A DNA stretch of 64,000 nt from Massilia aquatica (GTDB lineage: Bacteria > Pseudomonadota > Gammaproteobacteria > Burkholderiales > Burkholderiaceae_D): contig NZ_VVIW01000009.1 in NCBI RefSeq assembly GCF_011682045.1, forward strand, positions 62,001-126,000, written 5' to 3'. This document shows positions 25,764 to 44,158 of this stretch, in pieces. The stretch's first letter is position 1. Each line of letters starts with the position of its first letter. The translations under genes and the position numbers were made by a program. Below the pieces are notes generated by a model. It worked only from the letters and a program-made list of their open reading frames with translations. It did no database searches and was not told the origin of the DNA.

Positions 25764-26018
25764 CTACAGGCAGCCGGCCAGCAGCGCTTCGAGCTGGGCC
25801 TCGTAGCGCAGGTGCAGGGGCAGGTCGCGCGCAATGGCCAGGATTTTCTCGCCATCGCTGGCGTCCGGCGCCAGCGTGCGCGTGGCAAAGACCGGGCGCT
25901 CGGGTGCGCCCTTGATGCACGGCGTGTACACCGGCACGCGCACTTCGCGCAGCAGCGGCGGCGCGGTGGCGCAGGCGGCCAGCAGTGCGCCCGCCATCAG
26001 CAGCGTGATCGCCTTCAT
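25764..26018 (-). CDS. Rz1-like outer membrane spanin (lipoprotein)
   Basis: 84 residues. The short signal sequence LLMAGALLAAC gives a lipobox with Cys at residue 16, so the mature protein should be a small lipoprotein, partly Pro-rich at its start (ATAPPLLREVRVPVYTPC). Its ATG overlaps the stop codon of the Rz-like gene (ATGA), the usual arrangement of a two-component spanin pair. Role by family: fusing inner and outer membranes in the last step of lysis. It is the last gene of the island. Confidence 0.75.
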   Translation of the reverse strand: MKAITLLMAGALLAACATAPPLLREVRVPVYTPCIKGAPERPVFATRTLAPDASDGEKILAIARDLPLHLRYEAQLEALLAGCL

Positions 26019-26401
26019 CGGATCGACTCCAGGATCAGGTTCACGGCCGGCATGGCCTCGGCGCAGGTGGTGGCCTTCACGCCCGCGACCCGGGCCAGCG
26101 CAAGGTCGAAGCGGCGTGCGCTGGCCGCGGCCTGCTGGCGGGCCGCTTCGCCGCGCTGTTCGGCCAGGGTGGTCGCCAGGCCGGCGGCGGCGACGGCCGC
26201 GTTCTGCGCATCGAGCGCGCCGCGCAGCTGCGTCACCAAGGTCTGCTGTGCGCGCAACTCGGCCTGGGCCTGGTCGCGCGCGCTGGCGGCCAGCCACCAG
26301 GCGGTGACGCCGGCCGACGAGGTCACCAGCAGCAGCGCCAGCAGGACGGCGCTGGCGAGCTTCCAGACGCTGCCGCCGGCCAGGGTGGCAAAGGCGCTCA
26401 T
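26015..26401 (-). CDS. Rz-like inner membrane spanin
   Basis: 128 residues. One N-terminal membrane helix (VWKLASAVLLALLLVTSSAGV, trimmed edges uncertain) is followed by a long Ala/Gln/Arg-rich coiled coil to about residue 105, and a short tail with one Cys. This is the shape of Rz proteins, which span the periplasm and pair with an Rz1 lipoprotein. The gene starts inside the stop codon of the endolysin (ATGA) and ends inside the start of the Rz1-like gene, so the lysis genes are translationally linked. Confidence 0.78.
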   Translation of the reverse strand: MSAFATLAGGSVWKLASAVLLALLLVTSSAGVTAWWLAASARDQAQAELRAQQTLVTQLRGALDAQNAAVAAAGLATTLAEQRGEAARQQAAASARRFDLALARVAGVKATTCAEAMPAVNLILESIR

Positions 26402-26913
26402 GCCAGCACCTTGAGCGCGCGCGCGGTCAGCGCCAGGCGTTCGACCAGGCCATTGGCGCCGCCGTTGATGCGGCGCGTGAGTTTGACGAACTCGCGTGCA
26501 TCGGCCAGGGCATTGAGTCCATTCGCATGCCAGAACCAGCCGGCCGAACGGCACGCGTTGGCCGGCTGCTCGAGCAGTTCCGGATGGGCGATCAGGTCCA
26601 TCCCGAGCGCCTTGCCGCATGCGCTGTAGTTGCTGCGCCCGGTAAGCTGGATCAATCCGCGTCCGCGAAAGCGCACGCCGTCGCCCGCCACCACGTTGCC
26701 AAGATCGCGCCGGCCTTCGTAGGCGGCGCCGCTGGCCAGCTCGCGCACGTAGCGCAGGTGGCCGGATTCATGGCCCACCTGCGCCAGGAATGCCGCCTGG
26801 CGCACCGGCGTGTCGATGTCGAATTCGGCCATCGCAGCGTTCAGGCCGGGCAGGAACATGCCGGCTTTGGCGCGCGCGAACGGCATGATGCTGCGCAGTT
26901 CTTCAAGCGTCAT
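26398..26913 (-). CDS. Phage endolysin, GH19 (chitinase-like lysozyme) family
   Basis: 171 residues. VRQAAFLAQVGHESGHLRYV has the GH19 catalytic Glu (HESGH, near residue 44). FRGRGLIQLTGRSNY is the family's substrate-binding block, and the C-terminal INGGANGLVERL is typical of GH19 endolysins. No signal peptide is seen, so export would need a holin. It sits between two small membrane proteins and the spanins, completing a lysis cassette. Confidence 0.92.
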   Translation of the reverse strand: MTLEELRSIMPFARAKAGMFLPGLNAAMAEFDIDTPVRQAAFLAQVGHESGHLRYVRELASGAAYEGRRDLGNVVAGDGVRFRGRGLIQLTGRSNYSACGKALGMDLIAHPELLEQPANACRSAGWFWHANGLNALADAREFVKLTRRINGGANGLVERLALTARALKVLA

Positions 26914-27151
26914 GCGGTTCTCCGCGGCGGTTGCCGGCGACGTACAGCGCAATGCCGACCGCGAACAGGCATTCGAAAATGTCGCGCGCAACCACGCACG
27001 AGGCCACCCCGGCGGCGCTGCCGGCCACCAGGGCGATGTGGGCGTAGCGCACGCCAGGCGCGGTGCGCTTATCCATTTTGTTGAGGGCCAGGGTACTGGC
27101 ATAGGCGACGTACAGGCCGGCCAGCGCCTGGATGATTGAAACGATCGGCAT
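26903..27151 (-). CDS. Small phage membrane protein, holin candidate
   Basis: 82 residues with hydrophobic stretches SIIQALAGLYVAYASTLAL, YAHIALVAGSAAGVASCVV and a third near the C-terminus, and a charged Arg-rich tail. I do not recognise the family. Size, three short helices and its position directly before the endolysin (11-base overlap) suggest a holin or an accessory membrane protein of the lysis cassette. Confidence 0.65.
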   Translation of the reverse strand: MPIVSIIQALAGLYVAYASTLALNKMDKRTAPGVRYAHIALVAGSAAGVASCVVARDIFECLFAVGIALYVAGNRRGEPHDA

Positions 27152-27155
27152 GCGG

Positions 27156-27488
27156 TTATTCCTTCGGGTCATTGTGTTCCGACAACCATGGCAGCTTGAT
27201 GTCGCGCAGGCGGTCGATCAGGGAAAACAGGACGGGCACCGCGCGCATCGCCGCCAGGCCGGAAAAGAACGCGATTGCGCGGTCGAGTTCTTGCGGCAGG
27301 CCGAGGTAATGCAGGATCAGCGGCGTTGCCATCACCGACACCACCGTGCCGACGGTAATGGCGGTCAGCGCCTGGGGGCGCGTCATTTCTTTTGCGTAGC
27401 TGAGCGAGACTGCGGCGCCGATGAAGGAAAAGATCAGCACGCTGTATTTGATGCCCGCGACGCTGTCGCCAGTCGGATCGATTTGCAT
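27156..27488 (-). CDS. Phage membrane protein, second holin candidate
   Basis: 110 residues. Three hydrophobic segments are visible: YSVLIFSFIGAAVSLSYA, LTAITVGTVVSVMATPLIL and IAFFSGLAAMRAVPVLFSL. The C-terminus is charged (DRLRDIKLPWLSEHND). The shape resembles phage holins with a short N-terminal tail. GGGAGG lies 5 bases before its ATG. It is the first gene after the terminator at 27501, so the lysis genes may have their own promoter or rely on read-through. Confidence 0.65.
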   Translation of the reverse strand: MQIDPTGDSVAGIKYSVLIFSFIGAAVSLSYAKEMTRPQALTAITVGTVVSVMATPLILHYLGLPQELDRAIAFFSGLAAMRAVPVLFSLIDRLRDIKLPWLSEHNDPKE

Positions 27489-27500
27489 GGATGCCTCCCA

Positions 27501-27525
27501 TAAAAAAAACCCGCCGAAGCGGGTT
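27501..27525 (-). terminator. Terminator between tail-fibre and lysis genes
   Basis: The stem AACCCGC/GCGGGTT with the tetraloop TTCG on the minus strand is followed by a run of seven or eight T. It lies 8 bases after the stop codon of the last tail gene. UUCG-type loops are particularly stable. Confidence 0.88.
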
Positions 27526-27532
27526 GGGTGGG

Positions 27533-28198
27533 TTACTGATAATAACTGAGGCTGACCCATCCGCCGGGCGGAACCCCGATCGGGTAGGGCTGGCCGGGAG
27601 CGACGGCAAAATCGCCGTCCGAAAGTTGGTTAGCCGGGCCTCCCACACCGCCAGGAAATGTTCTCCCAAAAGCGCTGGCGGGCGCACCGTTGGTGGCAGG
27701 AATCGTATACCTGGAGTTAAGCACGGCACTGGCACTGTTACGAATCTCCCCGTTTTGCGGAAACACACCGTTATACGTAATGTAGGCCGAACCCGGGACG
27801 AAATCGTAGTAAGGCACCAAGGTGCTCGTCAACCTGTACTTGTCGCCAAAATTCGGGTGAGAGTACTGAGTGACTTGCGTCCGATAAAAACCGGCCGCGC
27901 CGCCACCGTTGTTCAGGCGCGCCGCAGCGTCGTATTCCGCATCCTCCCAGGCACTCCACCAGCCGTAGTTACCGAGCGTAAGACCTTCGGGGAACTGACC
28001 ATCATTAATGTACGTCACCTCGGTACAATAGGTCGATACGGCAGCACTCGACTGGGCCGTCCCTGATGATCCCTGTCCAACCAAAGAAACGATGCGGGTG
28101 GTGGTCGCCGGGCAGGGCCACGTGGTGTTCGAATAGAACGTCAGGTTCACCAGCTGGCGCGAACCGCTCATGCCTTGCCGGAAAAGTAGCATACTCAT
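27533..28198 (-). CDS. Phage tail-associated protein, probable fibre tip
   Basis: 221 residues, Gly/Tyr/Ser-rich with many aromatic residues (LGNYGWWSAWEDAEYDAA, GVPPGGWVSLSYYQ) and little charge. The composition resembles receptor-binding or adhesin tip proteins, but no family motif is recognised. ATGA coupling to the 401-residue protein upstream and a terminator just after its stop make it the last gene of the tail module. Confidence 0.6.
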   Translation of the reverse strand: MSMLLFRQGMSGSRQLVNLTFYSNTTWPCPATTTRIVSLVGQGSSGTAQSSAAVSTYCTEVTYINDGQFPEGLTLGNYGWWSAWEDAEYDAAARLNNGGGAAGFYRTQVTQYSHPNFGDKYRLTSTLVPYYDFVPGSAYITYNGVFPQNGEIRNSASAVLNSRYTIPATNGAPASAFGRTFPGGVGGPANQLSDGDFAVAPGQPYPIGVPPGGWVSLSYYQ

Positions 28199-29403
28199 CA
28201 GCGCATCACCTTTCCGAAAATATTGACCCCGCCATCGACCGTCCACAGCAAGATCCAGTCGGCGACGGTGGTGCTTGCCAGCATCGTCACCGGCACCGCG
28301 CCCAGGGTGGCGGCATGCGAACCATCGGACTTGATCCACTTGATGTTGGTCGGATTCCAGCGTCCCGACAGCGCGTAGCCTTCGATCAGCAGTTCGCCCA
28401 GCTGCCCGGCCGGCGGCCAGTTGACGATGTTGAGCACGTTGGCGCCAGCCACCGGCGCCCAGCGCTGCACCTGGCCGTTGCGGAAGTCCAGGGTGTTGAC
28501 TGTGCCGGCGTCGTAGCGCACCACGCGCGCCGCCACCGCGCTGCCGTCGGCGCGGGTGATGGTGGCACGGAAGGTGGTGGTGGTCAGCGCCAGCACCTGC
28601 ACTTCGTCGCCCGCCGCCAGCACGTTCGAGCCGCCCTTGATCACCAGGTTGGCGTCGCCCTGGATCGGCGTGTTGCCGGAGGCGATGAAACGGCGCGTAG
28701 CGCCGGCCTGCGGCGCCGGCGGAAAGCCGGTAATCGCATCGGTGGTGGTCAGCACCACCGTGTTGCCGCCGGCCGCCCAGATGTCGGGCCTGGCCGAGGA
28801 CACCATGTCGGCGCCACGCTTTTCGTTGATGGCGTCGGTCGCGTTTCCGGCCAACACGCTGCTGCCGGCCGGACCGGCGGCGCCGGCCACCGAGATGTTC
28901 CAGTTCGATACCGTGCCAACCCCGCTGAACGAGGTAATGTTCAGCACCAGGCTGGTCCCGGTATAGCTGACCACGGTGCCGAACATGCGCGCAGTCGGAT
29001 CGCTGGCCGACACGGCCACCATCGGCACGTTGACGCGGAACTGCTTGGCCGCCTGGGTCTCGAACGTCCGGTTGCCATTGCCGATCGGCAGCGGCGACAC
29101 GCTGGTACTGGTGAGCTGGGTGCCGTTGGCCGTTTCGGCCGCCGCCGCCGCCAACGCCGCCGAGTCGGACGAAGCCTTGGCCGAGTCCTTCGACGCCAGC
29201 GCCGATTTATCGGCCGCCGTGGCGCTGGTCAGGGCCTCGGCGGCGTTATGCTCGACGTTGGCGGCCACCGCGACGAACTGCGGCACGCCGGCGATGATCC
29301 AGCGCACGAAGGCGTCCAGGCGGCTGGAAAAGGTCGCGCGGTCGCCGCGCTGGATGACCGGGACCGGGCCCGGGGTAATTGGAGGTGGAATTTCGATTGC
29401 CAT
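28198..29403 (-). CDS. Phage tail fibre-like protein
   Basis: 401 residues. An N-terminal segment (to about 50) precedes an Ala/Ser/Lys-rich helical stretch at about 55-95 (ATAADKSALASKDSAKASSD), as in fibre shafts. The remainder is Thr/Val/Asn/Gly-rich and beta-like, with the short collagen-like AGAAGPAGSS near 190. The C-terminal half resembles phage side-fibre domains that end in receptor-binding parts. It lies between the 308-residue tail protein (TAATG overlap) and the presumed tip protein (ATGA overlap). Confidence 0.7.
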   Translation of the reverse strand: MAIEIPPPITPGPVPVIQRGDRATFSSRLDAFVRWIIAGVPQFVAVAANVEHNAAEALTSATAADKSALASKDSAKASSDSAALAAAAAETANGTQLTSTSVSPLPIGNGNRTFETQAAKQFRVNVPMVAVSASDPTARMFGTVVSYTGTSLVLNITSFSGVGTVSNWNISVAGAAGPAGSSVLAGNATDAINEKRGADMVSSARPDIWAAGGNTVVLTTTDAITGFPPAPQAGATRRFIASGNTPIQGDANLVIKGGSNVLAAGDEVQVLALTTTTFRATITRADGSAVAARVVRYDAGTVNTLDFRNGQVQRWAPVAGANVLNIVNWPPAGQLGELLIEGYALSGRWNPTNIKWIKSDGSHAATLGAVPVTMLASTTVADWILLWTVDGGVNIFGKVMR

Positions 29404-30329
29404 TAGATAAATCCTTTCACTTCGAGGTTAACAGTACAGAGATCGGGGCCGTCGAACGAGAGCGTCGGCGTGCCCAGTCCGAACACCCGCAGGGGTGAGT
29501 AATCGACCAGGTCGGTGGCGATCCACACGCAGGGAACCGCCTGCAGTTCCTTGAGCGTGGCGTAGACCGCCGCCGCGTCGCTGATGCCGAGCTTGGCCGC
29601 CAGGCTCATGTCGGTGGTGTTGGCGCCCAGTTCGATGGTGGTGCGGCCGAATTTGTCGACATCGACATAGCTGAAGGTCTGCGGCGTGACCTTGGCGCCG
29701 TACTCGGTCAGGCCGAGCGGGCGCATGTCGCCCAGGGCGATCAGGCCGCACTTCACCGGCCCGGTGATCTTGCTCAAGGTGATCGTCACCTGGGCATCGT
29801 TGTAGGCTTCCAGGCCGGTGCCGACAAAATCGGTCTGCGGCTTGAAGCGGTCGAAGCACCACTCGTAATAGTCGGGCGGGTCCGACCCTTCCAGGTCGTC
29901 CGAATAGCTGTAGACCACCTTGCCGCCGGGAGAATCGAGCACCGTGATGTCGATCCTGTCGGCGTCCAGGCCGAACATGGCGATGGCGTTGAAGGCGCCC
30001 ACCCGCAAGGTCACGCTCAGGGGCGAGGCAACCGTGCACTGGGTCGACACGTAGCCGTCGAACATGGCCCACAGATTGGTCGGCCCCTGGTCGACCCACC
30101 ACGGCACGGCGCCGAACTGGTTGATCAGCAGGGTCGGATCGTGGCCGCTGTTGGGCGAGGCCGAGACGCTCTCGTAAATGCGGTGGGTGACGGTGCTGAT
30201 GCACCGCTCGCCCAGCGCGTAGGCCTTGTTCGGGAGGTAGGCGCCATAATCGTTTTCGAGCACCGAGGTGCTCACGATCATGGCGCCGGTGACCTTGACG
30301 GGCACCAGGACACTGCAGGGTTGGCTCAT
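29403..30329 (-). CDS. Phage tail protein of unknown family (after tape measure)
   Basis: 308 residues. The N-terminal region includes AYLPNKAYALGERCI, similar to short carbohydrate-binding or attachment segments of tail proteins. The remainder is beta-rich (LRVGAFNAIAMFGLDADRID, SFSYVDVDKFGRTTIELG-like). I cannot match it to the lambda M, L, K, I or J proteins. Its position directly after the tape measure (4-base ATGA overlap) makes a tail-tip or hub role likely. Confidence 0.62.
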   Translation of the reverse strand: MSQPCSVLVPVKVTGAMIVSTSVLENDYGAYLPNKAYALGERCISTVTHRIYESVSASPNSGHDPTLLINQFGAVPWWVDQGPTNLWAMFDGYVSTQCTVASPLSVTLRVGAFNAIAMFGLDADRIDITVLDSPGGKVVYSYSDDLEGSDPPDYYEWCFDRFKPQTDFVGTGLEAYNDAQVTITLSKITGPVKCGLIALGDMRPLGLTEYGAKVTPQTFSYVDVDKFGRTTIELGANTTDMSLAAKLGISDAAAVYATLKELQAVPCVWIATDLVDYSPLRVFGLGTPTLSFDGPDLCTVNLEVKGFI

Positions 30330-33300
30330 GCGATTGCTTTCGTTCGAAGGTTATTGCCGCCGGAGCTGACGTTGTTGAACTGCTTGGCCAACTGATCGCT
30401 GCTGCCGGCCGTCTTGCCCGTGTTGGACGAGATCTCGATCAGTGCTTCGGCCTGCGACTGCACCACCATGCGCAGCTCGCGAATTTCGCCGGCCAGGTCG
30501 CCGCTGCCGGCGTTGACCAGCAGCGAGCGCGTTTGCCCGGCGTTGTAAATGCGCGCCGGACCGGTCGCTTCGAGTTCCGGACCGTTCTCGCCCACCAGGC
30601 GCACGCCGCCCTCGAACTGGCCGCCGTCGGCATAGCCCGGCACACCGTGATCGCGCAGGAACTGCGCCAGCGTGCCGTTCTCGCGCGCCTGCAGTTCCGG
30701 CAGGGCCGCTTTCCTGAACTCGAGCTCCTCGACCGCATCGACCGAAGCGCCGAAGGCGTTCTTCCAGAACGTCAGCCCGGCTGTCTCGCCGCGGCGATGC
30801 AGGATGTTTTGGTACAGCTGGTCGACCGTCAGCAGCGTTGGTGCGGCCCCGACCGATGTGACCGGCGCGGCGCCGACCGAAGTCAGCGGCGGCGCGCCGC
30901 CCCCGCTGGCACTGGATGGAATGCCATGCTCGCTCAGGAATTGCTGCCAGGCGCCTTTCTCCTTGGCCTCGAGTTCGGGCTTGGCCGCCTTGGTGAAATC
31001 GGCCACTTCGCCGTCGTCGATCGATTCGCCGAAAGCCTTCTTCCAGAAGTCCAGCCCACCCTGCTCGCCCTTGCGGCCGAGGATCTGTTCGTACAGACCC
31101 TCGACGGTGCGCGGGCTTTGGGTGGTCTTGACCACGGTCAGCGCCGTGCCGAATTGCTTGAGCGCTTCGGTGACGGACAGGATGCCGGTGTTCAGGCCCA
31201 GGGCGGCGTCGAGTTGCAACTTGGCGCTGTCGATGATCTCCTGCTGCTTTGCCATCGCATCTTCGTGCTGCTTCTCGAGCAGGCGCAGTTCCGCTGCGGT
31301 ACCGCCCTCGATGGCGCTGACTGAGCGGTTGATGGCCGCCACGGTCAGCTCCGCCACATCGATCTCGGCCTTCGCGTTCTGCTGCAAGGCGGCAATGCTG
31401 TTGCCGGTGCGTGCCTGGTCGCGCGCCCATTCCTCGAAACTCCGGAACAGTTGCTGCGATGGTTTGGCGATGGTTGCCAGCGCGTCGTCCAGGCCCTTGA
31501 TATCGGCCGTGCCGCCGCCACGCGTGGTGGCCGCTGCGCGCGCCAGCAACTCCTGGGCCGACCTGCGCTGGGCCCCGTCGAACGCTTTCGATTCGATCAC
31601 GGTCGAGGCCAGCGCCGTGTTGAGTTTCTCGAACACGGCGCGCACCGCATCGGCGCGCTGGGTAATGCCGTCGATGGCCACCTTGGCGTCGTCGGCGCGC
31701 TTCTGGATCGCCTTGACGTTGGCCTGGTAAGCCGTTTCCAGATCGGCCTTGTCCTGCTCGACCGCCGCTTTCACATTGTTAAAGGCGGTATTCGCGCCGG
31801 TGACGGCATTGCTTGCCGCCAGCGCCTGGTCCTGCAAGGCGTTGCGATGCTTGACCAGGGCGACGGTGGAGGCTTCCAGTCCCACCAGCTCGGTTTCGCG
31901 GGTGGCCTTGAGCGCACCGATCTTGTTACCCGTCAATTCCATGATCTGGATTTCGATGCTGCGGTTCTTGGCTTCCAGCGCCTTGGCCGTGGCCAAGTCC
32001 TGCAGCGCGTTGCGCTCCTTGACCAGGGCCGCAGTCGATGCCTCCAGTCCCACCAGCTCGGCTTCCCGGGTGGCCTTGAGCGCACCGATCTTGTTGCCCG
32101 ACAATTCCATGATCTGGATTTCGATGCCGCGGTTCTTGGCCTCCAGCGCCTTCGCTGCGACCACGTCCTGCAGCGCGTTGCGCTCCTTGATCAGGGCCAC
32201 GGTCGACTCGTCGAGGCCGACCACTTCCTTGGCGCGCTGCTCGGCCAGCGTCAGCGCGGCATTTTTCAAGGCCTGGATCTGGTCATCGATGCCCTTGTTC
32301 TTCTCTGCCAGGGCCTTGGCTGATAACAAGCCCTGCACTTCATCGAACAGCCCCTGGTTTTGCGTCGCAATGTCGCTGCGGCGTTTTTGCTGCAAGTTCT
32401 CGGGCGTCATCTTCAGTTCGTCGCGCTGGGCCTCCAGCCCCTTTTTCTCGCTGGCGATATCGGCGGCCGTTTTCACCACCTCGTCGATGGCGGGAACGAC
32501 CGAGGCAAACGCTTCCTGCAGCGCCATCAGGGCCACATAGGTCTTGGCATCGCCTTCCTTGGTGACATCGAGCGCCAGGACGGTCTCCTTGAACTCCTTG
32601 CGCGTGTCGACATGGCCCAGCTGCAGTGCGGCCATCTGGGTCTTGACGAATTTCTCGACCGGCGCCAGGCGCTCGGCTTCATTGAGAAAATTGTCGGCAA
32701 AGCCGCTGATATTGTCGGACAAGGCATCGATGCCGCCGGCCAGATGGATGAAGTCTTCGCGCGCCTGCAAGCTCGACAGGCCGGTGGCGCTGAACGCCAT
32801 GCCGATCGAGCCAAGCGCAACGTCGAGCGCCTGGTAGTTCGAGGCCACCCTCACCAGGGTCTCGCCCAGGCCTTCGCCGACCTTCACCAGGTCGGCCAGC
32901 ATCGGGAACGCATTGTTTGCGACCGTATCGAAGGCCGCGCTGACGCCGGCCGACAATTCATCGACCAGCTCCTGGCCCTTGAGATTGCGGGTGCTGACGC
33001 CAAAGTCGATGACCACGGCGTCGATGGCCTTGGTCAGGCCGGCGCCGTCGACACCGAGCTGGGCGCCGGCGCCGACCAGCAGGTCGCCGAGGCTGTCGAA
33101 GATCAGCGTGAATGGCTTGAGCGCTTTCGCCTCGAGCGCGCGCTTGTTGGTGAAGTCCTCGCGGCTGTCGCCGTGGAACCAGCCGCCGTCGCTGGTCTTG
33201 GTGACGTCTTCGTACTGGAAGCCGCTGCCTTTGCCGGTGCGCAGCGCGCCCAGCGTCCCCTGGAAGCGCACGCCGGTATCGGTAATGGTGGTGCTGGTGT

Positions 33301-36402: not shown

Positions 36403-36824
36403 TCAGTCTTGCGCAGGCCGGCCAGCGCCTGGGCACGCACCCATTGCTTTTTCGGATCGGTAAACAGCTTGCGCGCGGCCTCGGCCGTGAACAGCACCGG
36501 GGCGCCGCCCTGCGACAGGTTCCAGCCCAGGGTGGAGGCGACCAGGTAGTCGGTCTCTTCTTCGATGTCGTCGACCGGGTCGGTGCTCGGCATCTTGCCG
36601 GTCTGCGAATATTCGGAACGCAGCTTGCGGGTGCGCGCCAGGTCGATGCGCTTGCGCGCCTGGTGTTCCGGGCTGGCCAGTTCGATGTAAGCCGAGCTCG
36701 GCTCGTTGGTCTTCGGGTTGAGCAGCACCAGGCGGCCGGCCACGATGTCTTCGTAGTCGTCCAGGTCCAGGTTGTTGATCAGTTTGAAGGTGAGGTCGCT
36801 GACGTTGTTGTCGATGGTGTTCAT
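36372..36824 (-). CDS. Phage tail assembly chaperone (G-like)
   Basis: 150 residues. The acidic N-terminus (DLDDYEDIVAGRLVLLNP) and the Lys/Arg-rich middle (HQARKRIDLARTRKLR) are typical of siphophage tail chaperones. It lies between the tail tube and the tape measure, the invariant position of lambda G/GT-type genes. Its last ten codons hold the probable frameshift site that yields the longer form. Upstream on the coding strand is a 178-base gap with a 15-base tandem repeat around TTTGTCATTCCC and no gene that I can see. Confidence 0.8.
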   Translation of the reverse strand: MNTIDNNVSDLTFKLINNLDLDDYEDIVAGRLVLLNPKTNEPSSAYIELASPEHQARKRIDLARTRKLRSEYSQTGKMPSTDPVDDIEEETDYLVASTLGWNLSQGGAPVLFTAEAARKLFTDPKKQWVRAQALAGLRKTELFIKDSAKA

Positions 36825-37002
36825 GTGGTTTTTCTTTCGCGAGTAAATGGGGGAATGACAAATGAGGGAATGACAAACAGAACTGCAATGTGCCCGTGCC
36901 GGAACGCCGCGCCCGCGAAAGGCGACAGCGGTCCGGCCGGTGCTGGTGATGCGGCGCCAGGCAATCCCGGCGCAGCGTTGTTGCGTGAAGAAGCGCGGCC
37001 GC

Positions 37003-38214
37003 TTACGCTGCCGAGTCCTGGATGGCGATGGTGGTCAGGTCGGTTGCCAGGGCGGCACCGCCGGCGTTGTTGAGCAGCGCCTGGAACGGGAAGGTCTGGA
37101 TGATGGCTTTTTCGCCGTCGTCCTTGGACGCGCCGCCGATCTTGATGCGCGGGATGCTGAAGGCGATGAAATCGGCCGCGCCGGTGTTATCCGACGTGAA
37201 CACCGCGTACAGGCTGATTTCGCTTTCGTTGTAGAAGGCGTCGCGCAGCGCGGTCGAATCGAACGTGGCCGTGATCTGGCCGGTGACGATCACCCGTCCC
37301 GCGGCCTGGAACGTGACCGTGTTCGAGCCGACCGTCGGCTCGCCGGTCTGGGCCGCGGCGATGTCGATGCTCAGGCCGGTCACGTTGGCGACCGTCATGC
37401 CGCCCACGCGCAACACGCCGTTGACCGAGGCCATGGTGCTGGTGGCCGTGACCGGCAGCGGGTTGGTGAAGTACTGGCCGACATTGGTGACCGCGTTCTG
37501 GCCCTGGAATTCCACGTTGCAGGTGGCCATGCCGGTCGGCGGCAGCGAGATGCCGATTTTCGACACTTTGCAGCCGGTGAACACTTCGCTGGTCGGCACT
37601 TCCGGATACCAGTGCTCGATCGAATACGACTTGTCGGCGTGGCCGGTTTGCGGGATCAGGGATTTCTTGCCCCACACCGTCACATTGGCCGATGCGATCG
37701 GGCCTTCCGACGCCAGCGAGGTGCCGTTGAGCACCAGGCAGGTCAGCACCAGCGCGCTGACGTTGGTGACCAGGATGTTCTTGTTCAGGTTGGCAGGGTT
37801 GAAGGCGCCGACCGTGAGGCGAATGACATCGCCGATCTTGATGCCTTCGAGCAGGAACGAGCCGGCCGCGCGGGTGATGCTGTAAGCGCCGGGAACACCC
37901 GAGATGGTGATGGCGGCGCCGACGATGGCGGGGGTGGCCGTGAATGGCTTCTTCAGGGCCGCAGCCATGAAGTCCGCATAGGTCTTGGCCGACAGCTCGC
38001 CGCTGATCGCGCCGCCGACCTTGCGCTGGCCGTGACGGAAGTCGCTCATCTGGAAGTCGGTGCGGATCTCGTTGGACTGGTAGGTGTCCTTGGTCATGTC
38101 CAGCGACGAGGTGACGCGGCGCACGGCTTGCGATGCGGCCGCGGCCGGCTGCACGCCGTAGGTGAGTTCTTCTTTGTAGCTGACTTGTTTGTAAATGCCG
38201 CTTGCAGTGCCCAT
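37003..38214 (-). CDS. Phage major tail tube protein
   Basis: 403 residues. The N-terminus (GIYKQVSYKEELTYGVQP) matches the start of many siphophage tail tube proteins. SLDMTKDTYQSNEIRTDFQM and RKVGGAISGELSAKTY follow, then beta-rich sequence including a central extra domain (about 130-210), which explains the length. AAAGGAA lies 5 bases before the ATG. This is the only virion gene upstream of the chaperone. No capsid or connector gene precedes it. Confidence 0.85.
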   Translation of the reverse strand: MGTASGIYKQVSYKEELTYGVQPAAAASQAVRRVTSSLDMTKDTYQSNEIRTDFQMSDFRHGQRKVGGAISGELSAKTYADFMAAALKKPFTATPAIVGAAITISGVPGAYSITRAAGSFLLEGIKIGDVIRLTVGAFNPANLNKNILVTNVSALVLTCLVLNGTSLASEGPIASANVTVWGKKSLIPQTGHADKSYSIEHWYPEVPTSEVFTGCKVSKIGISLPPTGMATCNVEFQGQNAVTNVGQYFTNPLPVTATSTMASVNGVLRVGGMTVANVTGLSIDIAAAQTGEPTVGSNTVTFQAAGRVIVTGQITATFDSTALRDAFYNESEISLYAVFTSDNTGAADFIAFSIPRIKIGGASKDDGEKAIIQTFPFQALLNNAGGAALATDLTTIAIQDSAA

Positions 38215-38366
38215 GTTGATTCCTTTAGACGAAAAAAAACCGCAAGCGAATGCTGTGCGGTTGTGGTTGGATGATTCTGATCCTGCTGTGATGGTGCGGG
38301 ATTGCACCTTGGTGTCGATTGACTGGGTTGTCCAGGCCGGTGCTGTTTGCGCGCCCCAATGCAAAA

Positions 38367-38394
38367 AGCCCGCTAGGTTAGTAGCGGGCTTTTC
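38367..38394 (-). terminator. Terminator between the early and tail regions of the island
   Basis: A perfect 9-bp stem (AGCCCGCTA/TAGCGGGCT) with a 6-base loop. On the minus strand it ends in TTTTT, and the plus-strand side also has a T-rich tract. It lies between the 205-residue phage protein and the tail tube gene, so tail expression needs its own promoter or antitermination. Confidence 0.88.
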
Positions 38395-38430
38395 TTTGGA
38401 CGAGCGAACCCGACCTGAGCCTCAATTATA

Positions 38431-39048
38431 TCAAAACAAAATGCCCGTGCAAATGTTTTTGCGAAGTTTTTCGCGCAGTTGCGCACGCGCCTCGGCCGCC
38501 ACGTCCACCAGCGACGCGTTCGGAAACGCCCACACCGTGGCCAGGCTGCAGGCGCGGTAGATGGCCCACACGTGGATGCGCTCGAGGCTGCCGATCATGG
38601 CGTCGGTGGCTTCGGCCATCTTGATGTCGCTGGCCTGCTGCGCTTCGTACAGGTCGACGCCGTGGCCGTCGCCGTCGCCGCGCAGGCCGCGCATGGTGCG
38701 CGTGCCCAGGTCGCGGTCGGCGTCGCCGGCCATCCAGCGCTTCCACAGTTCGAGGCACAGATTGACCGGATCGTCGGCCAGGCGCTCCTGCACCGGCCGC
38801 GCCGGCGCCAGGTCGTTGGAAGCGGCGCGCTGCTGGTTCTGCTGGTTCTGCGGATTCTGCTTGCCCGGCGCATCCTGTGCGCCGCAGGCGCGCAGCGCCG
38901 GCATCCGCGGCGACGCGGCCGCTACCGGCGCCGGGGCCCGGGTCAGCACGCGTGCGCGCGCCGGTACGGCCGCTTCGGCGCGCAGCTTGCCTGCATTGCC
39001 TGCGCTGCCCGCGTCGTTGCCGCGCCATGCCATGGTCAGTGTGTCCAT
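38431..39048 (-). CDS. Phage protein of unknown function, possible late regulator
   Basis: 205 residues. The first 100 are low-complexity (Ala, Pro, Gln, Asn, with QNPQNQQNQQ). The C-terminal half is well-formed helix (DDPVNLCLELWKRWMAG, IHVWAIYRACSLATVWAF). I do not recognise the family. Position before a terminator, between replication genes and the tail operon, is where many phages carry the late-gene activator or antiterminator. That is only a positional inference. GGGAG lies 8 bases before the chosen ATG; an in-frame ATG at 39084 is possible. Confidence 0.6.
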   Translation of the reverse strand: MDTLTMAWRGNDAGSAGNAGKLRAEAAVPARARVLTRAPAPVAAASPRMPALRACGAQDAPGKQNPQNQQNQQRAASNDLAPARPVQERLADDPVNLCLELWKRWMAGDADRDLGTRTMRGLRGDGDGHGVDLYEAQQASDIKMAEATDAMIGSLERIHVWAIYRACSLATVWAFPNASLVDVAAEARAQLREKLRKNICTGILF

Positions 39049-39479
39049 CGTGTTTGCTCCCTTGGTGATGCAGTTGGTGTTCATATGTCGATTCCCCATA
39101 AGTGGTCATTAGAGGGGTTGGTTGAACCCTCTTGATTGCATGTGTAAAAGAGGTGGTTTCCCGCCCCCTGAGCAAAACAGACAAAAACTGCTATCGCACG
39201 TAGCCGCTTCACGGGTGGTCAATCCCGCCAAGGTGCAGCCCTTACCTCCCCTCGGTCCGCTTGTCGGGCGCACTCTTGTCGAATGCGACCTGCAAGCGGG
39301 CCAGTTTTTTCAACACTCACCGCTGTTCGCTCCGGACCGTGCTCGCGGTCCTCGGCAAGGCCCCCTCGCGCCTTGTTCTTGTCTTGCCTGGTGTATGGCT
39401 GGCGGCCAGTCTTTGCGCGGTGTGGGCCGATACAGGCCCGTGCACGTTTTTTCGGGTGTCGTCCGCTCCACCCGGCGCC
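39049..39479. other. Gap between primase and the 205-residue phage protein
   Basis: No gene that I can support. On the minus strand a 23-codon reading frame ends near 39238 (KKLARLQVAFDKSAPDKR); it looks protein-like but has no good start, so it may be the tail of a lost gene. The middle of the stretch is less biased in base use than its neighbours. It may contain the promoter of the 205-residue protein. Confidence 0.4.
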
Positions 39480-40436
39480 CTACATGGGACGCACCAGACG
39501 CGCTTCGCGCATGACCTTGTGTTTGATTTCGGCGAACACGCCGGCCTGCATCTGCAAGATGGCGTGCCCATGGCGCAGGCCGGGCCGCAGTGCGGCGGCG
39601 CGCGCTTCCAGCTGCGTCGACAGGTAATCGTTCCAGTCGCTGCCGGCGCACTCGGGATAGGCCACGCCCACGCCGAGCAGGGCCGCCGCTGCGCGCGCGT
39701 ACTCCAGGCCCGGATTGCGGCCGATGCGCGCCGCGGTTTCCCAATCGTTGTCGGCGCACACCACGGCCAGCCCGGCGGGCCGGCGCGCGCTGGCGACGAC
39801 CGGCAGGTTGCCGGCGTTGAATGCGACCACCACGCGGCACGCGGGCACGGCGTGAAAGATGGTCAGCCCGGTGGCGAAGCCTTCGGCAAAGGCCGTGAGG
39901 GTCGCGCCGGGACGCTCGATGACGTAACAGGCGCCACGCGTGGTGGCGCCCGGATGAAAGCGTTTTTCGCCGTCCGCCGCAATGCGCTGCAGGCTCAGGA
40001 TGGCGCCGTCGCACAGCATCGGCACCACCAGCGCACCGGCGGCGTCGACCCGCAGGCCGTGGCAGCCGGCCACGCCGAAGCCTTTGCCGGCCAGGTAAGG
40101 ATGTTCATTGCGCAGCGGCGCGCACTGCGCGTAGCGGCTGCGCGCACTCAAGGTGGCGGCGGCCAGCGCGGCGCGCCGTTCGGCCTGGCGGCGCGCGATC
40201 AGGGCGCGCTCGAGCGGCGCCGCCAGCGCACCGGCGCGGCCGGCGCGCCACATCAGCGGCTCGGCATGGACCGCGTAGTCCTGGCACCAGCCGACCTGGC
40301 CGTCGTCGGCCAGCTTGATGCTGCCGTTCTTCTTGCGCGGGTGGTTTTCGGTGCGGCAGCGCTGCCATTTGCCCGGCGTGAGGTAGTCCGGCGCGATGAT
40401 GCCGTGCGCGCCGATGAAGGCAAGGAAGCCGCTCAT
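39480..40436 (-). CDS. Phage Toprim-domain primase-like protein
   Basis: 318 residues. The N-terminal part (about 20-60) contains CRTENHPRKKNGSIKL and VGWCQDY, a zinc-finger-like primase start as in phage and plasmid DNA primases. The Toprim domain follows: Glu in TAFAEGFATGLTIF near 197 and the DxD in VVCADNDWETAARIG near 240. It should make RNA primers with the helicase encoded directly upstream (ATGA overlap). The usual C-terminal helicase domain of T7-type primases is absent here and supplied by the separate gene. Confidence 0.82.
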   Translation of the reverse strand: MSGFLAFIGAHGIIAPDYLTPGKWQRCRTENHPRKKNGSIKLADDGQVGWCQDYAVHAEPLMWRAGRAGALAAPLERALIARRQAERRAALAAATLSARSRYAQCAPLRNEHPYLAGKGFGVAGCHGLRVDAAGALVVPMLCDGAILSLQRIAADGEKRFHPGATTRGACYVIERPGATLTAFAEGFATGLTIFHAVPACRVVVAFNAGNLPVVASARRPAGLAVVCADNDWETAARIGRNPGLEYARAAAALLGVGVAYPECAGSDWNDYLSTQLEARAAALRPGLRHGHAILQMQAGVFAEIKHKVMREARLVRPM

Positions 40437-41887
40437 GCCTGCCTCCCCTTGGCAAAGGCGATGGCGCGCGAACGCACCCATCCCAGCACGGCCGCCGTGG
40501 GCGCGCGCGGCGCCGGCGCCGGCTCGTCCGGCCAGGCGCCGTACTTTTCCCTGAACTTGTTGGCGGCCCAGCCGTGCGCGTAGCCGCGTTGGTGCGCGAT
40601 CGCCAGCAGCTGGGCGTGGAAGTCGGCCTTGTCGGCCGTGCCGGGGCGCGCGGCGGCGGCCACTTCGTGCAACGCGCCCTCGGCGTGCTGGGTCAGGGTG
40701 CGCGCGTCGTGCATTTTTCCGCACACCGGGCAGGCCGGCAGCGCATCGTGCACATGGGCGCAGGCCGGGCACCTCATCGGCATGCGCTCCCTGGGGGTGC
40801 GGGCGGCGCGCGCGCCCCGTTCGGCGTCGTCCAGCACGCTGGCGCCATGTTCCAGGAAGTCGTGCATGGCGCTCCAGAAGCGCAGGCAGTTGCCGCTGTG
40901 ATCGAGCACGATGCATTCGCGCTTGCCCGCATGGCTGCGCAAGCCGCGCCCGAGGATCTGCATGTGCTCGGCCAGGCTCGACTTGAGCGGACGCGCCATG
41001 ATGATCACCTCGACATCGCTGACGTCGAATCCCTTGCTCAGCGCGCTGACGCTGATCAGGCCGCGCAGGTAGCTGTCCGGCTTGCGAAATTCGGCAATCG
41101 CCGCGGCGCGCGCTTCGTCGCCGCTGCGGTAGGTCACCAGCTCGCACAGGACGCCGGCGGCGGCGAACTGGCGCTGCATCTCTTCGCAGTGGCGCACGTT
41201 GCAGCCGAAGGCGATGAATTTCTTGGCCGCGCCGTGACGCAGGTACTCCTCGACGCAGTCGCCGATGATCGGCATGGCGCGCTCGGCGGCGGCATCGTCG
41301 CTCCATTCGCCGGCCACGGTCTTGACGCCGCTCATATCGGGCTCGCTGGCGGCGAAGACGCGGAACGGCACCAGGAATTGTTCGCGGATCAGGGTATTGG
41401 TGGTGGCGACGGTGACGATGCGGTCGTAGAAGCGCCCCAGCCCCCTGGTGATGGGCGTGGCGGTCAGGCCGATGCAGACGGTGGCGCGCGCGATGATGCG
41501 TTCGGTGATGGTCTTTTGCAGGGCGTGGCATTCATCGACGATGATCAGGTCGGCCTGGGGCCAGCCGCGCCGCGCCAGCGTTTGCACGCTGGCCACCTGG
41601 ATCGGCTCCGCCGGGCGATAGCGCCAGTGCTGGCCCTGCAGCACACCGTGGTCGATGGCATAGCGGTCGAGCGTGGCGCTGGTCTGGTCGATCAGGGCGA
41701 TGCGATCGGCGACAAAGATGGCGCGCCGGCCCTTGGCGCGGCACTCGGCCATCATGTGCGCGGCGATCACGGTCTTGCCGCCGCCGGTGGGAATCGACAG
41801 GATCAGGTTGCGCGCGCCGTCGCGGATATGCGCGCGCAAACCGTCCTCGGACTGGCGCTGGTAATCGCGCAGTTCAATGGCGTGCAT
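40433..41887 (-). CDS. Phage SF2 DEAD/DEAH-type helicase
   Basis: 484 residues, superfamily 2 helicase. Q-like start LRDYQRQSEDGL, Walker A in SIPTGGGKTVIAAHMM near residue 35, Walker B in LIIVDECHAL (DECH) near 115, motif III in CIGLTATPITRG, and motif VI in ILGRGLRSHAGKREC. A Cys4 zinc site lies near residue 375 (MRCPACAHVHDALPACPVCG). It overlaps the ParB-like gene upstream and the primase gene downstream by a few bases. Likely role: DNA unwinding in replication of the element. Confidence 0.9.
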   Translation of the reverse strand: MHAIELRDYQRQSEDGLRAHIRDGARNLILSIPTGGGKTVIAAHMMAECRAKGRRAIFVADRIALIDQTSATLDRYAIDHGVLQGQHWRYRPAEPIQVASVQTLARRGWPQADLIIVDECHALQKTITERIIARATVCIGLTATPITRGLGRFYDRIVTVATTNTLIREQFLVPFRVFAASEPDMSGVKTVAGEWSDDAAAERAMPIIGDCVEEYLRHGAAKKFIAFGCNVRHCEEMQRQFAAAGVLCELVTYRSGDEARAAAIAEFRKPDSYLRGLISVSALSKGFDVSDVEVIIMARPLKSSLAEHMQILGRGLRSHAGKRECIVLDHSGNCLRFWSAMHDFLEHGASVLDDAERGARAARTPRERMPMRCPACAHVHDALPACPVCGKMHDARTLTQHAEGALHEVAAAARPGTADKADFHAQLLAIAHQRGYAHGWAANKFREKYGAWPDEPAPAPRAPTAAVLGWVRSRAIAFAKGRQA

Positions 41888-42821
41888 GGGCGGCCTCCTT
41901 GAGCGACGCGATGGCAGGCACGATCGCGGCGTTGGCGTCGACGCCGAGCAGCGCGCGCACGCGCTCGAGCAGGCGGGCGTAGCGCCGCGCCTTGCTGTCG
42001 GCGTCGTTGCAGGTGGCGTTCAGCTGCGCCAGGCGGCCGGACAGCTGGTCGAAGCGCAGCGACCAGGCCGCGACCTGCTGCGCCAGGTCGGACGTGCTCA
42101 GTTCGCGCACCAGCGCGCCGAGGCGGCGGATTTCCTTGTCGGCCGCTTCGAGTTCGATCAGCAGCTCGGGGCGCGCGGGGTGCGCGGCTGCGCCGCCCGA
42201 TACAGGCTGCGATGGCGATGGCGGCGCGGCGAGGCGTTCGTGCGCGGCGGGCAAGCTCAATTCGCCGCGGCCCACCATTTTGGCCAGCTCGGGCGCGGCA
42301 CGCGCGACCTTGTCGGCCATCTTCTGGGTGCGGATGCTGGCGCCCGCGCGCGCGGCGCGCTCGGCCACGGTATCAAGGTGCAGCCTTGCACCCTGCCCCG
42401 CCGTGCGGTCGCCGCCGCTGCGCTGGGCCCGGCTCCAGTCCTGCGCGCTGGCGACGATGGCGGCCTGCTGCCCGGGCGACAGATGGCGCCGGTGCAGATT
42501 GGCCGACAGCACATACGCGGCCGCGCCGGTGCCGTCCAGTTCGATGAAGCGCGGCGCGGTGCCGGTGTCGAGGCAGGCGCGGTAGCGGTTGCCGCCGTCG
42601 AGGATCGCGCCCTGGTACAGCACGATCGGCTGGCGCATGCCATGGGCGGCGATGTCGCGTTTGAGCGCATCGAACTGGCTGCCGGACAGGCGCGGAAACA
42701 GGGTGCACAGCGGGTGCAGTTCGTACACCGGCGCGGGCTGCGAGGAGGCGCTGCCGCTAGGGTGCGGACGTGACTGTCCCGCACCGGCGGACAAGCCGCT
42801 GGCGTGATGGGTGTTGCTCAT
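41874..42821 (-). CDS. ParB/RepB-like nuclease-fold protein of the phage island
   Basis: 315 residues. The ParB N-terminal domain reads LKRDIAAHGMRQPIVLYQGA, then ILDGGNRYRACLDTG near residue 85, then ANLHRRHLSPGQQAAIVA near 125, the CTPase-box region of ParB proteins. A helical middle (about 150-200) and a coiled C-terminus follow. No ParA gene is seen nearby, so it is more likely a phage regulator or replication factor than a partition protein. Confidence 0.85.
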   Translation of the reverse strand: MSNTHHASGLSAGAGQSRPHPSGSASSQPAPVYELHPLCTLFPRLSGSQFDALKRDIAAHGMRQPIVLYQGAILDGGNRYRACLDTGTAPRFIELDGTGAAAYVLSANLHRRHLSPGQQAAIVASAQDWSRAQRSGGDRTAGQGARLHLDTVAERAARAGASIRTQKMADKVARAAPELAKMVGRGELSLPAAHERLAAPPSPSQPVSGGAAAHPARPELLIELEAADKEIRRLGALVRELSTSDLAQQVAAWSLRFDQLSGRLAQLNATCNDADSKARRYARLLERVRALLGVDANAAIVPAIASLKEAAHARH

Positions 42822-42828
42822 GTTTGCC

Positions 42829-43044
42829 TCAGGTCAGTTCATCGATCCGCTTGTGCGGGCATGAGGACGTTTCAGCGTGGAGCGCGCAGATCGCGTGAAA
42901 AGTGGCGATTTTGCATTCCGCCTGACCGTTCAGGATACGGTTGACGGTCGGCTGGGTTGTTCCCAGGGCCGTGGCAATGCGCATTTCCGTCCACCCGGTA
43001 GCGTCTTTGATTTCCCGTAACAGGGTGGAGATATCTTTATCCAT
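42829..43044 (-). CDS. Cro-like HTH protein
   Basis: 71 residues with one HTH (MRIATALGTTQPTVNRILNG at about 22-41), and nothing else. It faces the S24 repressor gene across 89 bases of regulatory DNA, exactly as cro faces cI. ATG at 43044 is chosen; a GTG two codons earlier is possible. The predicted promoter puts transcription start almost at this ATG. It heads the minus-strand operon with the ParB-like, helicase and primase genes. Confidence 0.85.
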   Translation of the reverse strand: MDKDISTLLREIKDATGWTEMRIATALGTTQPTVNRILNGQAECKIATFHAICALHAETSSCPHKRIDELT

Positions 43045-43050
43045 GTACAC

Positions 43051-43079
43051 ATTCTATACGCAATCGAATAGATTGGCAA
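43051..43079 (-). promoter_or_regulatory. Promoter of the Cro-like/early operon
   Basis: Reading on the minus strand: -35 TTGCCA (43074-43079), a 17-base spacer and -10 TAGAAT (43051-43056), followed by the ATG at 43044 about 7 bases later, so the mRNA is probably leaderless or nearly so. The imperfect operator AATC-GAATA-GATT (43062-43074) lies within the spacer. Confidence 0.65.
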
Positions 43080-43107
43080 CAAACCTGTCGGATTTTTCTG
43101 GTCATTT

Positions 43108-43126
43108 CTATTCGTCTGTGTATAAT
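43108..43126 (+). promoter_or_regulatory. Promoter element and operator half-site of the repressor gene
   Basis: A perfect -10 hexamer TATAAT (43121-43126) ends only 7 bases before the repressor ATG, so this transcript should also be leaderless, as is lambda cI from PRM. CTATTCG (43108-43114) is the inverted copy of CGAATAG (43065-43071), and is a likely operator half-site. No good -35 is seen, which fits an activated promoter. Confidence 0.6.
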
Positions 43127-43133
43127 CTCGGTC

Positions 43134-43856
43134 ATGACTATCTCACACCGACTCACACAAGCGATGGAAGAAGCCGGTTTCCAGTCGCAAAGCGCGCTCT
43201 CGCGCGCCTCCGGCGTACCGCAGCCGACGATTAACCGTATTCTCAACCGCAGCGGCGCGCGCGGTCCCGAGGCGGCCACCCTGGCCGCCCTGGCGAGCGC
43301 GTGCAATGTGGCCTTCGAGTGGCTGCACGAAGGCACCGGGCCGATGGCGCGCCGTGGTGCCGATGGGGCCGATGGGGCCGATGGCGCCAGCCTGGCGCGC
43401 ATGCAGCCCGTTGTCGTTGCGGAAGACGGCGATCCGCGCTTCGTCAAGATCAAGATGGTGACCTTGCGCCTGTCGGCCGGCATCAGCGGTTTCCAGGCCG
43501 ACCCCGAGCACGACCCCGGATCCACCTTGCCGCTCGACGCCGGCTGGCTGGGGCGCAACCACTATGTGGCCGAGCGCCTGGTGGCCACGCGGGTCAAGGG
43601 CGAGAGCATGGAGCCGACCTTGTATGACGGCGATATCATCGTCATCAACACGGCCGATAACCGGCCGGCCGATGGCGCTGTGTTCGCGGTCAACTACGAA
43701 GGCGAGGCCGTGGTAAAGAGGCTCTCGCGCGACGCCGGCGACTGGTGGCTGGAGTCCGACAACTCCGACAAGCGCAAGTACCATCGCAAGGTGTGCCGCG
43801 GCAGCGACTGCATTATCGTGGGGCGCGTGGTGCGCAAGGAAAGCGACCGCATCTGA
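43134..43856 (+). CDS. S24-family CI/LexA-like phage repressor
   Basis: 240 residues. The N-terminal HTH (SALSRASGVPQPTINRILNR at 20-39) binds DNA. A flexible linker holds GADGADGADGAS. The C-terminal S24 domain has the catalytic Ser in VKGESMEPTLYDGD near residue 159 and the Lys in GEAVVKRLSRD near 193. An Ala-Gly pair in LRLSAGISGF is a candidate self-cleavage site. RecA-stimulated cleavage would induce the island after DNA damage (family knowledge applied here). Its stop codon overlaps the start of the next small gene (TGATG). Confidence 0.92.
   Translation: MTISHRLTQAMEEAGFQSQSALSRASGVPQPTINRILNRSGARGPEAATLAALASACNVAFEWLHEGTGPMARRGADGADGADGASLARMQPVVVAEDGDPRFVKIKMVTLRLSAGISGFQADPEHDPGSTLPLDAGWLGRNHYVAERLVATRVKGESMEPTLYDGDIIVINTADNRPADGAVFAVNYEGEAVVKRLSRDAGDWWLESDNSDKRKYHRKVCRGSDCIIVGRVVRKESDRI
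43359..43385 (+). repeat. 9-bp tandem repeat in the repressor linker
   Basis: Three copies of GCCGATGGG (the last ends GGC) code for Ala-Asp-Gly repeats between the DNA-binding and S24 domains. Slippage would change linker length without breaking frame. Confidence 0.8.
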
Positions 43857-44158
43857 TGCGCGTGCGCGCCGGGCCGATGAAGTCGGCCTGCATCACGGTG
43901 GGCGGCCTGGTGCTGGCGATCGTGCTGGTCGACTCCATCGACACGCGGCCCGAACGCGGGCCGGCGCTGCTGGTGCGGCTGCAGCCGCATTTCCCGGCAC
44001 TGCCGATCATGCTGGTATCGATCGAGGATAATGGTTTTCGCGCTTTCGCCACGTTCCAGACTAGCGAACTGCTGGCGCTGGTGCAGCTTGAGCACGTGGC
44101 ATTTGTCGAGATCGATATCGATGCCGCATCCGCGGATACCGCTCAACTGCCGTTCTAG
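43856..44158 (+). CDS. Small membrane-anchored protein coupled to the repressor
   Basis: 100 residues. One N-terminal membrane helix (ITVGGLVLAIVLVDS) is followed by about 75 residues of mixed, beta-like sequence ending VAFVEIDIDAASADTAQ. The start overlaps the repressor stop (TGATG), so both are translated from one mRNA, probably in the repressed state. Family not recognised. Genes expressed with a repressor are often immunity, exclusion or other lysogenic-conversion functions (inference only). Confidence 0.6.
   Translation: MRVRAGPMKSACITVGGLVLAIVLVDSIDTRPERGPALLVRLQPHFPALPIMLVSIEDNGFRAFATFQTSELLALVQLEHVAFVEIDIDAASADTAQLPF

Follow-up and report, generated by a model that had tools for sequence, protein, structure and literature searches.

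A headless siphophage island of Massilia retains constrained replication genes and probably works as an SOS-controlled F-type tailocin-like element

The window analysed here is a 64,000-nucleotide stretch of DNA (contig C99, 62001-126000; genome code G000) from the 7.47 Mb genome of a close relative of Massilia rubra. It contains an island with the gene order of a temperate phage, bounded by trmB (25003-25710, minus strand) and a tRNA-Gly(ccc) gene (46025-46098, minus strand). An earlier note had described positions 25764-44158 as a headless phage island bounded by trmB; this host gene, found in 17 of 17 genus genomes with 98-99% protein identity in G002, G004 and M. rubra (G008), is the left neighbour of the island but lies just outside that interval. 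The S24 repressor and its small partner gene are transcribed opposite to the rest of the island. The minus-strand order from this switch is the Cro-like regulator, ParB-like protein, helicase, primase, the 38431-39084 gene, tail tube, two chaperones and tape measure, followed by three tail-side proteins, a holin, a small membrane protein, an endolysin and an Rz-like pair. These include every part that the earlier note had listed (tube, one chaperone, tape measure, three tail proteins, lysis, helicase, primase, ParB-like, Cro-like and S24 genes), each close to where it had placed them; an earlier reading is corrected in that the helicase and primase are two genes that slightly overlap in different frames. 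The same layout occurs at the same site in an independent genome, M. rubra CCM 8692 (G008), and is therefore not an accident of assembly.

The switch consists of a Cro-like helix-turn-helix regulator (42829-43050, minus strand; PF13560, E 6.5e-8) and an S24 repressor of the CI/LexA type (43134-43856, plus strand; PF00717, 2e-20; phrog_4, 8e-44). The repressor contains the AG site in LSAGISG, the serine of GESMEPT and the lysine of AVVKRL, which we take to be the cleavage-type residues. The putative divergent operator region between the two genes (43051-43133) contains promoter-like sites and two palindrome-like sites, TCTATACG-N4-CGAATAGA and TCTATTCG-N4-TGTATAAT, over two -10 boxes; the half-sites are mostly kept, with single changes, across seven genomes with the switch. 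The small partner gene (43856-44158, plus strand) has a 39% identical homologue that also lies directly after S24 in a headless cluster of Massilia sp. Root335. Beyond it, region 44304-44947 holds two small frames of 51 and 161 amino acids, separated by a frameshift, that form one 214-amino-acid frame in M. rubra and G002.

The early genes encode a ParB-like protein (41874-42821, minus strand; phrog_21315 of unknown function, 2e-18; ParB-like phrog_4715, 9e-7; Pfam ParB_N at E 0.19, below the cut-off), a RadD/DEAD-type phage helicase (40433-41887, minus strand; phrog_16, 2.8e-74; motifs GGGKT, DECH, TATP and QILGRG) and a Toprim primase (39480-40436, minus strand; PF13362, 1e-9; phrog_2249, 1.4e-47; motifs EGFAT and DND). 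Examination of 38200-43200 for replication-origin repeats revealed nothing like iterons, only two-copy direct and imperfect inverted repeats. A defence-system reading was rejected: one of ten proteins, the helicase, matched PADLOC, through a shared helicase domain (best E 1.5e-18).

The next gene (38431-39084, minus strand) is a proposed late-gene antiterminator or activator. Its homologues precede the terminase genes in three cousin phages described below (L062, IMGVR_3300028586_000052 and C33, the last in the same genome as the island). The protein belongs to no named family and has no sequence match to a known Q protein; a fold search with a poor model (mean predicted local distance difference test score, pLDDT, 67.3) was empty. 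The gene is followed by a late-promoter-like site (TTTGCA-17-TATAAT with an extended -10; 38425-38453, minus strand), a consensus match only, with five such sites found against 2.6 in shuffles; it is kept in M. rubra and reads TATAGT in an intact cousin. About 30 bases past it lies a perfect 12-bp terminator hairpin resembling tR' (38364-38393, minus strand). In an intact cousin phage, a hairpin of 12 bp lies equally far from the regulator gene, with some of its arm bases changed. A regulator gene, promoter, early terminator and late genes, in this order, constitute the arrangement of lambda Q, and from its position we infer that 38431-39084 encodes the late regulator.

The tail module, entirely on the minus strand, starts with the tail tube protein (37003-38214; PF18906, 3e-38; alignment A1), whose 453-amino-acid frame extends farther upstream, over the deletion scar described below, while its homologues begin at 38214. 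It continues with tail assembly chaperones 1 (36372-36824; phrog_313, 7e-7) and 2 (36049-36303; PF23812, 4e-10), the tape measure protein (30326-36025; phrog_7740, 7e-26) and a tail-tip-side protein (29403-30329; phrog_6278, E 1.5e-63; 60 homologues). A good model of the latter (pLDDT 89.7) gave no PDB match at E <= 0.001 (best E 2.5e-3); its weak fold matches include the phage T1 tail tip, a diffocin baseplate and a monocin cap. A putative fibre-like tail protein without a family match (28198-29403) shares its C-terminal 105 residues with same-position prophage proteins of G004 (41%) and G010 (32%). The last tail gene (27533-28198) encodes a variable protein, possibly of the tip or receptor type, for which a database search gave three proteins, itself included.

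A terminator-like hairpin between the tail and lysis genes (27508-27525, minus strand) is weak alone (21 such sites against 18.0 in shuffles), and its stem is kept in M. rubra. The lysis cassette, also on the minus strand, includes a holin (27156-27488; phrog_2359, 1e-12; PF16931, 5e-4, under its cut-off), a small membrane protein (26903-27172) that stands in the same order between holin and endolysin, with 67% identity, in a prophage of G055, and a GH19 endolysin (26398-26913; PF00182, 3.5e-10; phrog_181, 5e-70). It ends with an Rz-like spanin (26015-26401; weak match to Rz-like phrog_214, E 0.013) and an overlapping gene that, by position and its signal-like start, may encode a small Rz1-like lipoprotein-type spanin (25764-26018; phrog_3580 of unknown function, E 4e-7).

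No head, packaging, neck, sheath, portal, terminase or integrase family was found among the called genes of the stretch by searching its proteins against Pfam and PHROGs. Likewise, tblastn of 129 proteins from six cousin phages revealed no head remnant in 25700-46300. The only credible matches there were homologues of the 38431-39084 gene, primase and helicase, and the best remaining match (E 2.6e-4) is short and lies on the strand opposite to the tape measure gene. The headless state claimed by the earlier note (no head, terminase, portal or integrase genes) is therefore confirmed, and the profile search that it had proposed found no terminase, portal or capsid homology in the region. The hallmarks of an integrated prophage are likewise missing: there is no integrase match, no second copy of tRNA-Gly in the window and no attachment-site remnant at the left end.

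Three complete-looking cousin phages (L062, IMGVR_3300047320_000341 and C33) share with the island the order of early, late-regulator and tail genes, but have a packaging, head and neck block of 9-10.7 kb between the late-regulator gene and the tube. In L062 (contig JACMLV010000680.1 of a Burkholderiaceae metagenome-assembled genome), the genes behind the 38431-39084 homologue encode, in order, the small and large terminase, portal, protease, capsid, adaptor, head closure, neck and tail terminator proteins, and then a tube 76% identical to that of the island. IMGVR_3300047320_000341 encodes a helicase (50% identity) and primase (70%), then homologues of the large terminase (TerL), portal, protease, capsid and terminator, and a tube (75-80%). 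A complete-looking prophage in the same genome as the island (C33:427000-466000; L200, L201) has ParB, helicase (57%), primase (66%), a 42% homologue of 38431-39084, TerL, portal, capsid, tail and lysis genes; its tube has no sequence match. The TerL of C33, also matched by phrog_9, is 98% identical to that of the tRNA-Gly prophage in G004, and its TerL, portal and capsid together are 93-98% identical to the proteins of that prophage.

Comparison with these phages localizes the scar of a head-module deletion to 38287-38351, where the upstream side matches DNA that follows the Q-position gene and the downstream side matches DNA that precedes the tube in intact phages. Of these limits, 38351 is set by a 21-base match to L062, whereas C33 gives 38358. 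The Q-position gene and the tube are separated by 216 bases in the island, compared to approximately 9.0 kb in L062 and 10.4 kb in C33 (to its presumed tube gene). The 216-base spacer is a mosaic of two phage contexts. Its first part, together with the end of 38431-39084, aligns with IMGVR_3300028586_000052 at 58 of 76 bases (E 7e-13), directly past the homologous gene there. A 42-base segment of the spacer that includes the hairpin is 79% identical to C33 DNA located behind the homologue in that phage. On the other side, 38287-38220 matches the bases directly before the tube in IMGVR_3300047320_000341 (59 of 70, E 4e-15); shorter pieces also align with L062 and L164 at this position. M. rubra shares this join, with 97% identity over 350 bases. 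The deletion removed about 9-10 kb, the tail terminator included, and the loss of the head block places the tail and lysis genes behind the late-promoter-like site and the terminator hairpin.

Since the scar is shared by both copies, the differences between the window island and that of M. rubra arose in the headless state. The ratio of non-synonymous to synonymous substitution rates (dN/dS) was pooled per module with codon bootstrap intervals; the tape measure and the 27533-28198 tip protein were kept outside the module groups, as both stand apart. The ratio is 0.22 [0.15-0.31] for the replication genes (1117 codons), 0.14 [0.10-0.20] for the tail genes (tube, chaperones, and the 29403-30329 and 28198-29403 genes), 0.21 [0.12-0.32] for lysis and 0.22 [0.14-0.33] for the regulators. 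All genes compared in 25764-44158 are open frames in both species. The comparison across relatives that the earlier note had called for thus yields dN/dS of 0.14-0.22 by module, that is, purifying selection, which argues that the replication genes, preserved by natural selection after the loss of the head, work.

Fast change is confined to the centre of the tape measure and to one tip protein. The tape measure has a dN/dS of 0.57, with changes and in-frame indels packed into approximately residues 500-1400; by sliding counts this part is strongly diverged, while both ends are conserved and the frame is kept. The tip protein is only 66.5% identical between the species (dS 0.53), compared to 95-99% for its neighbours. 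Both were probably exchanged by recombination. As the tape-measure centre is replaced between the two species, tail length or lumen contents may differ.

To place the island among related loci, we surveyed 392 genomes of the family in an even draw. The survey gave 61 tube matches in 48 genomes; with only four candidates per genome scored, these counts may be low. After five weak fragments (E > 1e-20) were dropped, 56 loci were classified: 27 headless, 28 with head genes, and one (L138, G251) with neither a visible head gene nor S24. Of the 28, 25 were assigned by TerL, portal or capsid homology (the probe proteins came from G412/L062, G086 and G055, themselves among the 25), G063a through gene calls compared with G086, and L144 and L123 by eye from open reading frames; the presence of head genes does not equal a working prophage. 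The headless loci are 24 from the sister genus g6, one from Massilia sp. Root335, and those of the window genome and M. rubra.

The 24 loci of g6 (L099-L115, L125, L126, L129, L131, L133, L016, L018) consist of S24, a Q-position gene and then the tail, with a propionyl-CoA-synthetase-like gene in the stretch at 21 of them; they look like the fixed F-type tailocin of a genus. The two that were followed to their other end (L016, L018-L019) finish at a xanthine/uracil-permease-like gene. Like the island, the g6 and Root335 clusters have S24, a Q-position gene and a tube, here within 1.5-1.8 kb, with a hub protein behind and no TerL, portal or capsid match; the gene-by-gene reading covered four g6 loci and Root335; a T-tailed hairpin precedes the tail genes in two of three checked headless clusters (G021 and Root335, not G063b). 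Their tubes are 33% (g6) and 67% (Root335) identical to that of the island. They lie at a different chromosomal site, and Root335 retains a tail terminator. The Q-position gene of g6 is weakly similar to antiterminator Q (phrog_127, E 0.0022), and its 180-amino-acid product has no homology to that of 38431-39084 (blastp E 2.6). The Root335 cluster (L064, 7209-20421) also has an S74-peptidase-type fibre gene; the S24, HTH and terminator genes of the cluster have 100% identical counterparts in the IMG/VR entry L149, which is listed there as a virus. No match to the island ParB, helicase or primase at E 1e-6 was found at the 24 g6 loci and Root335 in the fetched stretch, mostly about 11.5 kb upstream of the tube, so that, among the headless clusters sampled, only the islands of the window and M. 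rubra retain replication genes. Such a match is also lacking at most headed loci, but their stretch usually stops short of the early region.

Within the genus, the Cro-S24 switch adjoins trmB in 7 of 17 genomes and was not found in the other ten within the fetched stretch (at most 20 kb; three stretches of 6.9, 12.6 and 15.7 kb). Two of the seven carry the island. Five species (G002, G004, G015, G010 and G013; L042-L046) have a stump between trmB and cro: the switch is accompanied only by a LydA-type holin gene, with the junction close to the beginning of the ParB-like gene. This holin, scanned in the G015 copy (PF16083, E 7e-11), differs from that of the island and shows purifying selection (pairwise dN/dS 0.14-0.33). 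A single holin beneath a CI-type switch is unusual and could have its own function. At the DNA level, the S24 genes of the two island carriers are 97% identical to each other and 84-87% identical to those of the five, while trmB is 94-97% identical throughout; these identities thus indicate two old allele lineages at one site. G004 and G010 have complete-looking prophages past the switch, which likewise show the gene order of the island with a head block added. In G004 and G012, a copy of the 46-47 bp end of tRNA-Gly accompanies the complete gene; G010 has a partial copy, with the whole gene outside the fetched stretch; tRNA-Gly is therefore the attachment site of such phages.

We suggest that the island is a domesticated headless siphophage, probably working as an SOS-controlled F-type tailocin-like island. 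It combines non-contractile tail genes (tube, chaperones, tape measure, tip-side genes) without a sheath, its own lysis cassette (holin, endolysin and the weak Rz-like pair), and a fixed site under purifying selection, as expected for a locus with a host function. DNA damage would induce self-cleavage of the S24 repressor, so that the early operon, from cro to the Q-position gene, could be transcribed. The Q-position protein would then let RNA polymerase starting at 38425-38453 pass the hairpin at 38364-38393, and, because the head block is gone, the late transcript would run straight into the tail and lysis genes. Tails would assemble, be released by holin and endolysin, and be aimed at related strains by the tip and fibre proteins. 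Two things may explain why the replication genes persist. They share an operon with the late regulator and precede it, and their products may be required in their own right, either to support late transcription, as in rhizoviticin, or to copy the island and so raise gene dose. The best reading is that the early operon is kept as it feeds late expression. More tentatively, and somewhat unlikely in our view, the island could be a self-amplifying tailocin, in which induced helicase, primase and ParB copy the island DNA in place, giving many more tails per cell before the burst; if so, domestication kept a phage replicon as a gene-dose amplifier for a DNA-free weapon.

Several observations weigh against the tailocin interpretation. 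The island was found in only 2 of the 17 genus genomes. Without a tail terminator gene, which the headless Root335 cluster has kept, the tubes may fail to be capped to length; in addition, a terminator-like hairpin separates the tail genes from the lysis genes. The Q function of 38431-39084 is positional, and promoter and terminator scans yield little more than shuffled sequence. The last few residues of the Cro-like protein are in a different frame in M. rubra (tblastn pieces in two frames). The highest single-gene dN/dS values within the module groups, 0.91 and 0.71, belong to genes of 84 and 89 codons with three and two synonymous changes, too few to read. Synonymous divergence of the island (dS approximately 0.10-0.13) is below that of its flanks (0.19-0.23), and the two copies may have spread by recombination, not descent, since the species parted; the selection argument is unaffected, as such exchange still postdates the scar. 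Finally, the tailocin function is a prediction from the genes.

The rarity of the island, the five relatives with only the switch and one holin at the site, as if such elements erode, and the abundance of loci with head genes would also fit a defective prophage that has simply not yet decayed, its genes useless to the host. We consider this unlikely, since dN/dS has stayed far below 1 in four modules following the deletion that both copies share, and the frames are open in both species. There is also no indication that phages have renewed the replication genes: the helicase is 46-62% and the primase 61-70% identical in the phages compared, versus 96% and 98% between the two islands. Of the case that the earlier note had named as fatal to its proposal, a common intact prophage with this copy a recent, decaying deletion, the first part holds (28 of the 56 tube loci have head genes, and C33 in the same genome is a complete-looking relative), but the copy is neither recent nor visibly decaying. 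That note had proposed a tailocin in the making or a domesticated killing particle; the headless state common to two species and purifying selection fit domestication better than a recent decaying deletion.

The same five relatives, which retain only cro, S24 and the conserved LydA-type holin, together with the open and conserved lysis genes of the island, could instead point to an SOS-controlled device for lysis, or for cell suicide and DNA release, with the tail genes as passengers. This is improbable, as no module is more constrained than the tail genes, with the tape measure and the tip protein set aside, and the diversification of the tip protein would be needless for passengers. Least of all do we expect a phage satellite or split phage, in which the island replicates and supplies tails while the C33 cousin, with its related helicase, primase and late-regulator genes, supplies heads and packaging: the C33 phage has its own tail genes, the tail terminator and neck proteins for docking a tail to a head are missing, and the integrase and the packaging-redirecting or small terminase genes of satellites resembling phage-inducible chromosomal islands are absent from the called genes (packaging sites were not searched), as is an attachment repeat.

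The path from phage to tailocin is usually reconstructed from end products. Here several of its stages are visible side by side: the scar itself, a complete-looking cousin carried by the same genome, sister species that keep only a bare stump, and another genus whose clusters are fully stripped. The F-type pyocins of Pseudomonas aeruginosa consist of non-contractile tail and lysis genes without head genes. The island resembles them in these respects and in its fixed chromosomal site, but pyocins are not known to carry replication genes and have a different site, tail family and regulators. In the open-licence PMC literature we found no paper combining 'tailocin' and 'Massilia', the two that name Janthinobacterium are unrelated judging by title and abstract, and no other headless locus with replication genes was apparent by title.

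A review describes headless systems as being without replication genes (PMC12090994), whereas the ParB-like, helicase and primase genes of the island are open and constrained. The earlier note had held that this module sets the island apart. That claim is weakened, and the combination is not unprecedented, because rhizoviticin of Allorhizobium vitis VAR03-1, an experimentally supported F-type tailocin, also keeps replication-related genes in its locus (PMC10811719); the lack of such genes is thus a common rather than strict feature of F-type tailocins. Five of six deletable early genes of rhizoviticin were needed for tail-gene expression, which their deletion lowered (PMC10811719). The rhizoviticin locus shares with the island the headless state, tail and lysis genes, a LexA-family repressor, a replication-related early region and intact prophage relatives at tRNA genes; the locus is the same in eight strains. 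Two different phages contributed its early part and its tail part, and it has DnaA-like and DnaB-like genes and an integrase remnant. The island instead follows the layout of a single phage, joined at an identified scar; its replication genes are ParB-like, RadD-type helicase and Toprim primase genes, and it lacks an integrase remnant. Deletion mutants and killing assays support rhizoviticin, whereas the island is known from its genes. The authors of the rhizoviticin study read their locus as an early stage (PMC10811719), whereas selection in two species after head loss argues for working replication genes. The island makes it possible to test whether the replication genes of headless islands still work or are mere leftovers. 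The island is best read as joining a rare, already known kind with rhizoviticin as its precedent; what is new here is a readable head-deletion scar, the position that the tail genes have gained downstream of the former late-promoter region, and selection on replication genes after the loss of the head.

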